A stretch of 64,000 bases of DNA from Natronomonas salina (GTDB lineage Archaea > Halobacteriota > Halobacteria > Halobacteriales > Haloarculaceae). Below are positions 46,580-50,453 of the stretch, one piece after another; positions within the stretch are counted from its first letter, which is position 1; each line of letters begins with the position of its first letter. The notes below the pieces were generated by a model. That model worked only from the letters and a program-made list of their open reading frames with translations. It was not told where the DNA came from and did not search any database. The DNA lies in assembly GCF_013391105.1 (NCBI RefSeq), contig NZ_CP058335.1:868001-932000 (forward strand). Reading direction: 5' to 3'. The translations under genes were made by a program, and so were the position numbers.

Positions 46580-46990
46580 TCAGTCCTCGAGGGCGTCGCC
46601 GATGCGCTCGAGTTCGCGGCGGATGTCGTGGAGTTCGTCGCGGACCTTCCGCACCTCGCGGGTCAGTTCCTCGTTGTCGCTGCCGCCCTCGCCGCGGCCG
46701 CCGGGGGAGCCGCCCATGGCGCCGCCGGGACCGCCGCCGCCCATCATGCCGCCCATCATCTGCGCGAAGGGGCTGCCGCCCATGCCGCCGCCACCGGGAC
46801 CGCCGCCGGGGCCGCCGGGACCGCCGCCGCCCATCATCTCCTCCATCTTCTCCTCGCGACTCAGGCCCTCGCCCTCCTCGCCCTCGCGGTCCTCCGCGCG
46901 CTGTTGGCGGATCTCCTCGACCCGCTCGCGGAACGACTTCTCCTCGCCGCTGTCGTCGCCCTCCTCGGGCGCGTCTTCTTCGTCCGTCAT
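46580..46990 (-). CDS. Gly/Met-rich low-complexity protein with flanking charged helices
   Basis: A 136-residue protein starting MTDEEDAPEEGDDSGEEKSF. Residues 18-50 are a charged helix. Residues 50-103 are almost only Gly, Met and Pro (GGGMGGSPFAQMMGGMMGGG). Residues 106-134 are a heptad-like coiled coil (ELTREVRKVRDELHDIRREL). Probably an oligomer with a flexible Met-rich core; soft-metal binding through Met is possible. No family recognised. The frame upstream of 46990 is a DUF2797 shadow. Confidence 0.65.
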   Translation of the reverse strand: MTDEEDAPEEGDDSGEEKSFRERVEEIRQQRAEDREGEEGEGLSREEKMEEMMGGGGPGGPGGGPGGGGMGGSPFAQMMGGMMGGGGPGGAMGGSPGGRGEGGSDNEELTREVRKVRDELHDIRRELERIGDALED

Positions 46991-47039
46991 ACCCCCCCAT
47001 TTCGGCTCCCCGCAGAAAAGTCCCAAGGTCTCACGGGCG

Positions 47040-47807
47040 TCAGCCGAACGCGCCGAGGCTCGACTGCAGTTCCCGGGAGGACGTCCCCTCCCGGAGTTCG
47101 TAGCCGACCAGGTCGCGCATGTCGACGGCGTAGACCCCGCCGTCGCGCTCGAGGACGAGCACCCGGCCCTTCGTGCCGCGGACCGTCCCCGAGGCGAGCG
47201 TCTCGGCGACCGGCGCGGCATCGAGGTCGAACCCGTAGTCGAACGCGTAGGTGTCCTTCACGTCGAACTCGGCGAGGAGGTCCTCCCAGGCGGCCTCGTC
47301 GACCGTCCGGGCCATGCCGTCGACCTTGGTCGGCACCCGGACGGCGTCCGGCAGCGGCGTCTCCGCGGCGATCTCGGCCTCGATCTCCCGGGCGATCCGG
47401 CCGTCGGCGACCGTGTAGATGTGGGCGCCGCGGTCGGCGCCCTGCTCGCGGAACCGCGTCTCCAGCCGCCGGCGCTTCGTCACGCCCACCTTGAACGTGT
47501 CCGGCGCGAACGCCGCGAGGTAGACCGCGTGCTCCTGGTGGCAGTCCATCTCGGCCTTCAGGCACGTCCCGGTACAGCGGGCGCAGATCCACGTCGAGTC
47601 GTGGGCCTCGCAGTAGGGGGCGCGGGCGGCCTCGCAGGCGACGTGGTCGGCGCCGTCGAACGTGCCGGCACAGCGGCGCTCCCCGAGGGTGTAGGAGAGT
47701 TCCCGACCGACCGCAAGGGGCTCCCGATCGACGGCTCCGTCCACGGCGACCAGCAGCGCCGCTGGGTCGTCCGTCCCGGCGCCCGTCTCGTAGCCGACGA
47801 CCTGCAC
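47040..47807 (-). CDS. DUF2797 family protein
   Basis: A 255-residue protein. The N-terminal third holds a zinc-type Cys cluster (ERRCAGTF, HVACEAARAPYCEAH, ICARCTGTCL, DCHQEH). Residues 94-125 (VYLAAFAPDTFKVGVTKRRR) look like a GIY-YIG-type core, consistent with the DUF2797 assignment. A nucleic-acid role is possible; activity not known. It precedes the Gly/Met-rich gene by 49 bp. Confidence 0.8.
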   Translation of the reverse strand: MQVVGYETGAGTDDPAALLVAVDGAVDREPLAVGRELSYTLGERRCAGTFDGADHVACEAARAPYCEAHDSTWICARCTGTCLKAEMDCHQEHAVYLAAFAPDTFKVGVTKRRRLETRFREQGADRGAHIYTVADGRIAREIEAEIAAETPLPDAVRVPTKVDGMARTVDEAAWEDLLAEFDVKDTYAFDYGFDLDAAPVAETLASGTVRGTKGRVLVLERDGGVYAVDMRDLVGYELREGTSSRELQSSLGAFG

Positions 47808-47932: not shown

Positions 47933-49069
47933 ATGGAAGACGGGAGCAAGGTAACGCGTCGCACTGCGCTCAGACTGGCCGGCGGCTCCGTCGCCGCCGG
48001 CGGCCTCGTCGGCGTCGTCGGCGCCGACGACGGCCTGGTCGGCGGGGACGACGAGCGCGTCCGGGTGAACGTCGGCTACCGGACCGCCGGCGGCCGCAGC
48101 GTGGCCGAGGACGCCGCCGGGACGGTCATCCACGACCACCCGACCGGCATCCTGACCCTCGAGGTCGACCGGAAGGTCCTCTCACCGCTCCGCCGGAGCC
48201 CCGGAATCCGGTTCGTCGAGCGGGACGTCGAACTCGAGACCGTCCAGACCGTCCCTTACGGCATCGAACGGGTGAACGCGCCCGACGCCCACGCCGCCGG
48301 CGAGACCGGCGACGGCGCCGACGTCGCGGTCATCGACACCGGCATCCAGGGCGACCACCCCGACCTCCAGGCCAACGTCGGCGAGGGCCGCGCCTTCCTG
48401 CTCGGCCTGAGCCACGGCCACTGGGAGGACTCGAACGGCCACGGCACCCACTGTGCCGGCACCATCGGCGCCGTCGACGACGACCAGGGCGTCGTCGGCG
48501 TCGCCCCGGAGGTCACCCTCCACGCGGTGAAGGTGATGAACTCCATCGGCACCGGCTTCACCTCCGACATCGCCGCCGGCATCGAGTGGGCGGCCGACCA
48601 GGGCCACGACATCGCGAACCTCTCGCTGGGCGGCAGCGGGTCGAACACCCTCCGGGAGTCCTGCCAGTACGCCGCCGACCGGGGGATGCTGCTCGTCGCC
48701 GCCGCCGGCAACGACGGCCCCTGCACCGACTGCGTCTCCGCGCCGGCGACCTACCCGGAGTGCTTCGCCGTCGCGGCGACCGACGAGAACGACGACGCCG
48801 CGTCGTTCTCCTCGACCGGCGCCGAGATCGAGATCGCCGCCCCCGGCGCGAACGTCGAGTCGACGTACACGGGCGGCGGCTACCAGACCCTCTCGGGGAC
48901 GTCGATGGCCGCCCCGCACGTCGCCGGCGGCGCCGCCCAGCTGGTCGCGAACGGCTACAGCGCCGACGAGGCCCGACAGCGTCTCAAAGACACCGCCGAG
49001 GACGTCGGGCTCCCGGAGACCGACCAGGGCGAGGGCCGCATGGACGTCGCCGCCGCGCTCGGGGTCTGA
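47933..49069 (+). CDS. Tat-exported subtilisin-like serine protease (halolysin type, S8)
   Basis: A 378-residue protease. Twin-arginine signal VTRRTALRLAGG (9-10), an inhibitor-like propeptide to about 108, then the S8 domain: Asp135 in VAVIDTGIQ, His170 in NGHGTHCAGT, oxyanion Asn260 in AAAGN, Ser324 in SGTSMAAPH. Five cysteines (174, 244, 264, 267, 277) suggest two disulfides after folded export. It lacks the C-terminal extension of many halolysins. The next gene, on the same strand, encodes a BsuPI-like inhibitor domain. Confidence 0.92.
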   Translation: MEDGSKVTRRTALRLAGGSVAAGGLVGVVGADDGLVGGDDERVRVNVGYRTAGGRSVAEDAAGTVIHDHPTGILTLEVDRKVLSPLRRSPGIRFVERDVELETVQTVPYGIERVNAPDAHAAGETGDGADVAVIDTGIQGDHPDLQANVGEGRAFLLGLSHGHWEDSNGHGTHCAGTIGAVDDDQGVVGVAPEVTLHAVKVMNSIGTGFTSDIAAGIEWAADQGHDIANLSLGGSGSNTLRESCQYAADRGMLLVAAAGNDGPCTDCVSAPATYPECFAVAATDENDDAASFSSTGAEIEIAAPGANVESTYTGGGYQTLSGTSMAAPHVAGGAAQLVANGYSADEARQRLKDTAEDVGLPETDQGEGRMDVAAALGV

Positions 49070-49107
49070 CGGGGTAGTTCTATGCGTGTGGGGGCCGAAG
49101 GCGGGGT

Positions 49108-49446
49108 ATGCTCGACTCGGCGCTGGAGGTGACCGTCGGCGACGGCGTGCAGTTCCAGTTCACCGTCGTCAACGGGAGCGACAGGCCCGTCGAACTCACG
49201 TTCCGGGACGCCTGCAAGGTCGACTACGCGGTCTACGAGGGCGACGACGAGGTGGGTGCGGAGGTGTGGCGCTACAGCGACGACCGGATGTTCGCACAGG
49301 TCCTCACGAACGCCGACCTCCAGCCCGGCGAGACGGCCACCTTCGAGGAGACCTGGCCGAATCCCGATCCAGGCGACTACACCGCGGAGGCGACCCTCCG
49401 CGTCGTGGAGCACGACGTCTCGGCGCGGACGCCGTTTTCGGTCTGA
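49108..49446 (+). CDS. BsuPI-like intracellular proteinase inhibitor domain protein
   Basis: A 112-residue all-beta protein. The pattern VQFQFTVVNGSDRPVELTF, AEVWRYSDDRMFAQVL and LQPGETATFEETWPN is that of the BsuPI family, first known as an inhibitor of intracellular serine protease in Bacillus. There is no signal peptide, so it should stay in the cytoplasm. Being 38 bp after the subtilisin stop suggests cotranscription and control of unexported protease; inference. The ATG at 49108 follows a TATA-poor spacer. Confidence 0.7.
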   Translation: MLDSALEVTVGDGVQFQFTVVNGSDRPVELTFRDACKVDYAVYEGDDEVGAEVWRYSDDRMFAQVLTNADLQPGETATFEETWPNPDPGDYTAEATLRVVEHDVSARTPFSV

Positions 49447-49517: not shown

Positions 49518-50453
49518 TTACGAGAAGTCCTGTTCCAGCAGTTCCCGGACCGCCCGCCGGACCGCGTCGTCCGACGACCCGTCCGGCTCCCAGCCCAGCC
49601 CGGCCAGCTTCTCGACGGAGAGCCGCATCCGCGGGACGTCGCCCACCCAGCCGCGGTCGCCGCCCGTGAACTCGTAGGCGGGGTCGACGCCCATCTCGTC
49701 GGCGACGATGTCCGCGATGGTCCGCACCGAGGTCGTCGTCCGCGTCCCCAGGTTGTACGTGTTCATCGCGTCGTCGGCGTGCTCGACGGCGTAGGCCATC
49801 GCGTCGAGGCAGTCCTCGATGTGCATGTAGGACTTCTCCTGGCGGCCGTCGCCGAGGATCTCCAGGGTCGAGGGGTCCGCCCGGAGCTTCTGGATGAAGT
49901 CCGGGACCACCGCGCCCAGCTGGAGCCGCGGGCCGACGATGTTCGCGAACCGGAAGTTCCAGACCCGGAAGCCGTGGCTGTGGGCGTACACCGACAGCAG
50001 CGACTCCTCGGCGAGCTTCGCCGCGCCGTACATGCTGATCGGCTCCAGCGGCGCGTAGTCCTCCGGCGTCGGCCGCGGCGCCTCGCCGTAGACGGTCGAC
50101 GACGAGGTGAAGGCGATGCGGTCGCAGCCGACCGCCTGCATCCGCTCGGCGACGTTCGCCGTCAGGTCCGTGTTCAGGCGGAACTGCTCGTTCGGGTCGT
50201 CGCTGTTGACCGCCTTGTCCGCCGCGAAGTGGAAGACCGCGTCGGTCGACCCGTCGATCGCCTCGGCGACGACGGCGGGGTCCTGCAGGTCTCCCTCGAC
50301 GACCTCTGCTTCGTCCGGGACCCACTCCCGTCGCCCGTTGTCGAACCGGTCGGCGACGACGACCTCGTTGTCCTCGACCAGCCGATCCGCGAGGTGCGAC
50401 CCCACGAACCCGCCGCCGCCCGTCACGCAGATCCGCTTGCCGGAGAGCTTCAT
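49518..50453 (-). CDS. NAD-dependent nucleotide-sugar epimerase/dehydratase (GalE-like)
   Basis: A 311-residue extended SDR: TGGGGFVGSH (11-20), Ser118/Ser119 in FTSSSTVYGE, and the Tyr142-x3-Lys146 pair in MYGAAK. Likely a UDP-glucose 4-epimerase or related enzyme supplying sugars for glycosylation; exact substrate open. A TATA-like ACTTACG about 26 bp upstream supports the ATG at 50453. Confidence 0.85.
   Translation of the reverse strand: MKLSGKRICVTGGGGFVGSHLADRLVEDNEVVVADRFDNGRREWVPDEAEVVEGDLQDPAVVAEAIDGSTDAVFHFAADKAVNSDDPNEQFRLNTDLTANVAERMQAVGCDRIAFTSSSTVYGEAPRPTPEDYAPLEPISMYGAAKLAEESLLSVYAHSHGFRVWNFRFANIVGPRLQLGAVVPDFIQKLRADPSTLEILGDGRQEKSYMHIEDCLDAMAYAVEHADDAMNTYNLGTRTTTSVRTIADIVADEMGVDPAYEFTGGDRGWVGDVPRMRLSVEKLAGLGWEPDGSSDDAVRRAVRELLEQDFS

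Follow-up and report, generated by a model that had tools for sequence, protein, structure and literature searches.

The best-known member of the protein family considered here is the intracellular proteinase inhibitor (IPI) of Bacillus subtilis (PF12690, PDB 3ISY), whose gene has a possible alternative start with a signal peptide. In the cited passages of the family's one structural paper (PMC3901451), docking of IPI to a model of the subtilisin Isp1 placed residues 62–68 in the active site, with a Gln at P1. The same passages describe the inhibitor role as disputed even for B. subtilis IPI, which was 'repressed' by casein and no longer stands in the MEROPS inhibitor list, given the doubt as to whether IPI inhibits proteases at all. 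They also state that in no species with a complete genome sequence is an IPI gene found in the vicinity of a subtilisin gene, an absence used to argue that IPI and subtilisin genes share no operon. On the protease side, the halolysins SptA, Nep and HlyR4 are Tat-exported haloarchaeal S8 enzymes with a propeptide and a C-terminal extension, the latter being part of the halolysin definition in the cited passages of PMC6085418; an inhibitor gene is not mentioned alongside these enzymes in the passages cited. According to PMC6085418, in the part cited, SptA activates itself within the cell, and when its Tat signal was mutated, active enzyme was present intracellularly and the cells died. Finally, Natrialba magadii has yielded, in purified form, an intracellular inhibitor of subtilisin termed NSI (Gimenez et al. 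2003, cited in PMC3403918), which, according to the cited passages of the latter paper, was awaiting study at the molecular level as of 2012.

The window analysed here (a stretch of 64,000 nt from Natronomonas salina) carries a subtilisin gene followed by a BsuPI-family gene on the same strand. An earlier note on this DNA had suggested that a cytosolic inhibitor, made from the same mRNA, would hold in check a protease that folds in the cytoplasm before Tat export. Both ORFs and the 38-bp gap between them were confirmed to the base (Table 1), and the hazard of cytosolic folding before Tat export, on which the suggestion turned, is documented for SptA (PMC6085418, cited passages).

Table 1. Features of the S8 subtilase–BsuPI locus (positions counted from the first nucleotide of the window)
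Feature	Position	Strand	Basis
Divergent DUF2797 gene, a landmark conserved at BsuPI loci	47040..47807	-	PF10977, 72.9 bits
Short-form S8 subtilase (378 aa), no C-terminal extension	47933..49069	+	PF00082 match, catalytic residues
Tat-type signal region (TRRTALRLAGG), residues about 1–30	47933..48022	+	Sequence; end of region is an estimate
Propeptide, residues 42–97, predicted beta-alpha-beta-beta-alpha-beta	48056..48223	+	AlphaFold2 model, block pLDDT 80–88
Catalytic domain; Asp135 (48335–48337), His170 (48440–48442), Ser324 (48902–48904)	48308..49030	+	PF00082, residues 126–366
TATA-like TTCTAT, -30 to -25 of the BsuPI ATG, in the 38-bp gap	49078..49083	+	A/T peak in paired and solo loci
BsuPI-family (IPI-like) inhibitor-like protein, 112 aa, no signal peptide	49108..49446	+	PF12690, E 3.8e-30
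Putative inhibitory loop RMFAQVL, residues 60–66; putative P1 Gln64 (49297–49299)	49285..49305	+	Alignment to IPI residues 62–68
NAD-dependent epimerase, convergent downstream; second landmark	49518..50453	-	PF01370, 173 bits

The upstream ORF, a subtilisin gene in the earlier note, encodes a complete S8 subtilase. The Pfam search returned Peptidase_S8 (PF00082) at 191 bits (cut-off 21.8), subtilisin Carlsberg was the best PDB match (E 1.6e-67) and the catalytic triad and the oxyanion Asn260 are all kept in the aligned columns. NCBIfam offered several S8 matches, anti-phage IteS among them, all of which fell below cut-off and were rejected as an identity for the protein. Its N-terminus, MEDGSKVTRRTALRLAGGS, bears a Tat-type motif, judged by eye and by regular expression rather than by a signal predictor, and R9 and R10 of this motif are invariant in 17 aligned BsuPI-linked S8 proteins. 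The predicted fold of the propeptide block is one that we take to be the fold class of subtilisin propeptides. The ORF stops right behind the catalytic domain and therefore lacks a C-terminal extension, a short form shared by 106 of the 112 full-length S8 proteins in BsuPI-linked loci. The description 'halolysin-type' thus holds for the Tat motif and for the predicted propeptide ahead of the catalytic domain, features shared with SptA, Nep and HlyR4, but not for the extension of the classic halolysins; the window protease may function as a halolysin does, but it belongs with the short-form relatives and not with the classic members. A Cys264-x-x-Cys267 pair (window 48722–48733) follows the oxyanion Asn, is invariant in all 17 aligned short proteins and could possibly form a disulphide or a metal site.

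The downstream ORF matched PF12690 at 104.3 bits (cut-off 22.9, residues 10–100), and its sequence also hit PDB 3isy (E 3.3e-11), while NCBIfam assigned no family to it. When its AlphaFold2 model (mean pLDDT 95.5) was compared with known structures, 3ISY ranked first (TM 0.88; Z 17.2, rmsd 1.3 Å over 109 residues, 28 % identity), followed by unrelated enzymes at Z about 9.7. The predicted structure is accordingly the IPI variant of the Ig fold, and the window BsuPI and B. subtilis IPI are of the same family and fold. The BsuPI frame comprises only 122 codons in all and so leaves no space for a signal peptide, in agreement with the signal-less BsuPI-type product that had been proposed; the short frame, together with the position of the TATA-like element, supports the called start.

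To our reading of the open-licence PMC papers, no description of an S8–BsuPI pair was found, in line with the earlier note, which knew of none in haloarchaea. The pair itself is widespread. Of 392 genomes in the order Halobacteriales, 219 gave a PF12690 match (218 above cut-off), and one BsuPI locus was taken from each of these, second places in G381 and G015 being left out; removal of the G010 locus (L246), which lay below the Pfam cut-off and was missed by our own profile, left 218 loci for analysis. An S8 gene lies near BsuPI in 63 of these, spanning 25 genera and nine families, and the remaining 155 are unlinked. In 57 loci, the S8 gene is directly upstream of BsuPI on the same strand; of the six further linked loci, three have long S8 ORFs that stop just short of BsuPI, two have three S8 genes immediately downstream of it, and in the last an S8 gene lies about 1 kb upstream. 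All 137 S8 ORFs in BsuPI neighbourhoods are on the BsuPI strand, and the S8 stop is separated from the BsuPI start by a median of 64 bp (46 of 59 measured gaps <150 bp). In 34 of the 63 linked loci there are between two and four S8 ORFs, a number that includes some split genes. Flanks of only ~1.5 kb were available in 39 of the 219 loci, and at least 4 kb on both sides in 108 of the 155 unlinked ones, so 63 is a lower bound.

Assuming 3,500 genes and about six S8 genes per BsuPI genome, a same-strand upstream S8 gene would be expected for roughly 0.1 % of random genes. As the genomes are related, the count of linkage changes on the tree outweighs such raw numbers: the BsuPI tree (214 proteins; L201 and L245 left out as outside the length limits) requires at least 23 changes, eight of them forced by well-supported (starred) branches, against a mean of 54 after shuffling. 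Among the six named relatives, two (L032 and L037) have S8 directly upstream of BsuPI and four do not. The pairing recurs far beyond chance, and these data, from a far larger genome set, contradict the absence of IPI–subtilisin linkage stated in the cited part of PMC3901451.

Two peculiarities of the linked S8 genes were noted. In 17 of the 112 full-length proteins, Gly replaces the oxyanion Asn, suggesting that these may be weakened or non-catalytic subtilases; in tandem arrays, the Gly-bearing member often adjoins BsuPI (e.g. L100:5203–6378, minus strand; L137:3710–4843, plus strand). In four loci (L113:3250–4420, L180:5261–6420, L195:5253–6436 and L189:3607–4466), the S8 gene nearest to an intact BsuPI is split over two frames, as if decaying, with sequencing error as the alternative.

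The BsuPI locus has recognizable landmarks. A divergent DUF2797 gene lies upstream in 167 of the 218 loci, and the epimerase is present in 82. The DUF2797–BsuPI distance has a median of 195 bp in unlinked loci and 1,799 bp where S8 is directly upstream of BsuPI, placing the protease between two fixed landmarks. S8 genes adjoin DUF2797 in 39 of the 167 loci with BsuPI and in none of the 30 loci examined from BsuPI-negative genomes, 46 of which were searched for DUF2797 (p 0.001). One of these 30, from genome G109, has a weak BsuPI-like frame next to DUF2797 (L269:1069–1248, minus strand; E 5e-6), and some 'negative' genomes may therefore carry diverged or broken copies. On the minus strand of the window, positions 46580–47221 contain an ORF that combines a low-complexity stretch rich in Gly and Met with a charged tail and has no Pfam match over cut-off. 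No BsuPI was found in the viral contigs searched.

A single S8 lineage beside BsuPI was considered and rejected, linkage changing eight times on the S8 tree (L284, a repeat of a linked locus, omitted). Most linked S8 proteins fall in one short-form group, together with unlinked S8 proteins of genomes with a solo BsuPI, and long-form S8 genes from other branches also adjoin BsuPI. We read this as repeated settling or loss of S8 genes beside BsuPI, between which the trees do not discriminate, rather than as one inherited operon.

Shared transcription does not appear to be essential to the arrangement. Among 216 loci (L041 and L200 were excluded, their start codons being uncalled), the A/T fraction peaks at -34 to -25 of the BsuPI ATG, where the background is near 0.3: its maximum is 0.92, at -28, in the linked loci (62) and 0.95, at -27, in the unlinked ones (154). 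Hexamers containing five or more A/T occur at -33 to -22 in 47 of the 62 linked loci, compared with 0–4 of 62 in five control stretches, and S8 genes have a separate A/T peak of their own at -33 to -27. With a promoter-like element present in paired loci too, near -28, the shared mRNA of the earlier note is not needed, and BsuPI could be transcribed on its own; read-through from the protease gene into BsuPI over the 38 bp is nonetheless likely. Whereas B. subtilis ipi has its possible signal-bearing start, neither a hydrophobic stretch nor a Tat-like motif was found in any of the 216 called haloarchaeal BsuPI N-termini (0/216 each), and in six of the 216 the frame ahead of the called start does include a hydrophobic stretch. 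BsuPI thus appears, from its sequence, to be cytosolic.

What such a protein might do is suggested by the stretch that aligns with the docked residues of IPI (KMFTQAF in IPI, RMFAQVL in the window). Of the paired BsuPI proteins 89 % retain the putative P1 Gln, as do 95 % of the solo ones, and Trp54, near the loop, is present in all of them. On these grounds, BsuPI probably blocks the active site of subtilisin that has matured prematurely in the cytosol. We also considered residue 61 (window 49288–49290) as a marker of linkage, Met being found in 56 of 62 paired and 98 of 152 solo proteins (p 9e-5, uncorrected), a suggestive difference that we do not claim: in eight phylogenetically independent pairs from starred branches only, changes averaged 3.7 in the same and 0.1 in the opposite direction (median p 0.125).

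Taken together, BsuPI is probably a cytosolic inhibitor of S8 proteases and a safety catch for Tat-exported subtilisins, the adjacent one included, although its inhibitory activity, its target and the role of the loop are all inferred. Under this reading, the protease precursor would have to fold in the cytosol ahead of Tat export, with its propeptide as a first, self-cleavable lock. BsuPI would be a second lock supplied in trans, its loop acting as a wedge in the active site of any protease that matures early or fails to be exported. Having no signal, it would never leave with the enzyme, and the secreted protease would be free. Its own promoter at a stable locus, between DUF2797 and the epimerase, would allow its synthesis to precede that of the protease and to be independent of it; it would be inherited there while S8 genes repeatedly settle beside it. 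That the protease already has a propeptide counts against the need for such a catch. The arrangement also differs from that in Bacillus, where the IPI target Isp1 is itself intracellular and, according to the passages cited from PMC3901451, IPI and subtilisin genes lie apart; here, BsuPI repeatedly adjoins S8, and the window neighbour is Tat-exported.

At the level of whole genomes, S8 genes are commoner where BsuPI is present. Among 99 genomes, S8 was found somewhere in 48 of the 50 that have BsuPI and in 30 of the 49 that lack it (p 1.7e-5, phylogeny ignored), with a mean of 6.0 and 1.2 S8 genes per genome, respectively; among genomes of 2.7–4.1 Mb only, the figures were 43 of 45 and 21 of 32 (p 0.001, phylogeny again ignored). 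The earlier note had counted an inhibitor gene commonly found without the protease against its proposal. This is the case for linkage (155/218 without a nearby S8) and mostly not for the genome as a whole. As linkage is often absent but S8 is mostly present elsewhere, BsuPI is more likely, on this distribution, to inhibit S8 proteases in general than to be dedicated to a single enzyme. The mirror-tree comparison of S8 and BsuPI likewise counts against a one-to-one partnership, showing no excess correlation when controlled by DUF2797 (partial r -0.001, p 0.53, 33 loci) or by the epimerase (partial r 0.06, p 0.25, 35 loci). Four genomes (G043, G244, G298 and G088) carry BsuPI and have no S8 at E<=0.01, indicating that BsuPI is able to persist without an S8 target. 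In all four, residue 61 is Ala, possibly a relaxation after loss of the target, which was not significant after phylogenetic pairing.

These data also bear on other explanations. BsuPI could be an export escort that holds the folded precursor Tat-competent, with active-site blocking secondary, a view that fits a protein cytosolic by sequence and linked on the same strand to S8 proteins of which all 112 full-length ones bear, by a lenient regular expression, a Tat-like RR motif. We consider it unlikely, as the 30 BsuPI-negative genomes with S8 manage without BsuPI, BsuPI occurs in genomes without S8 and its conserved surface takes in the loop docked at the active site in the cited part of PMC3901451. 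A similarly low probability is given to the proposal that BsuPI binds other cellular proteins or proteases, its linkage to S8 being a by-product of an integration-prone spot beside DUF2797. The four S8-free genomes, the predominance of unlinked BsuPI genes and the negative mirror-tree result would all suit this proposal, as would the Ig-like fold, a common binding module whose next-best structural matches are unrelated enzymes. Against it stand the uniform strand of the linked S8 ORFs, the absence of S8 beside DUF2797 in BsuPI-negative genomes and the co-occurrence of the two families at genome level.

A more speculative extension, which we hold to be rather improbable, is that subtilisin and BsuPI form a protease–antiprotease switch for stationary-phase death and lysis and that haloarchaeal BsuPI is the missing NSI gene. 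The separately promoted inhibitor would set a threshold, and failed Tat export or an end to inhibitor synthesis would let retained protease self-activate, lyse the cell and feed its kin. The likeness to a toxin–antitoxin pair is one of analogy only, with harm on the protease side documented in SptA (PMC6085418, cited passages). Least probable of all, and indeed very unlikely, is that BsuPI really acts on intracellular subtilases that lack a signal and have their genes elsewhere, the exported neighbour being no target: Isp1 is the reported IPI target and intracellular subtilisins are predicted in some haloarchaea (both in the cited part of PMC3901451), but the linked S8 proteins are of the exported, RR-bearing type.

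Returning to BsuPI as a probable safety catch, its pairing with S8 across 25 haloarchaeal genera overturns the reported absence of linkage, and the natural sets of protease and putative inhibitor offer a direct testing ground for whether the IPI family inhibits proteases. NSI is an intracellular subtilisin inhibitor of a haloarchaeon, as BsuPI is predicted to be, and BsuPI is proposed as a candidate gene for this biochemically known archaeal inhibitor. More broadly, the pair bears on a problem posed by Tat export, namely how a cell can live with a protease that is folded in its own cytosol and able to activate itself there.
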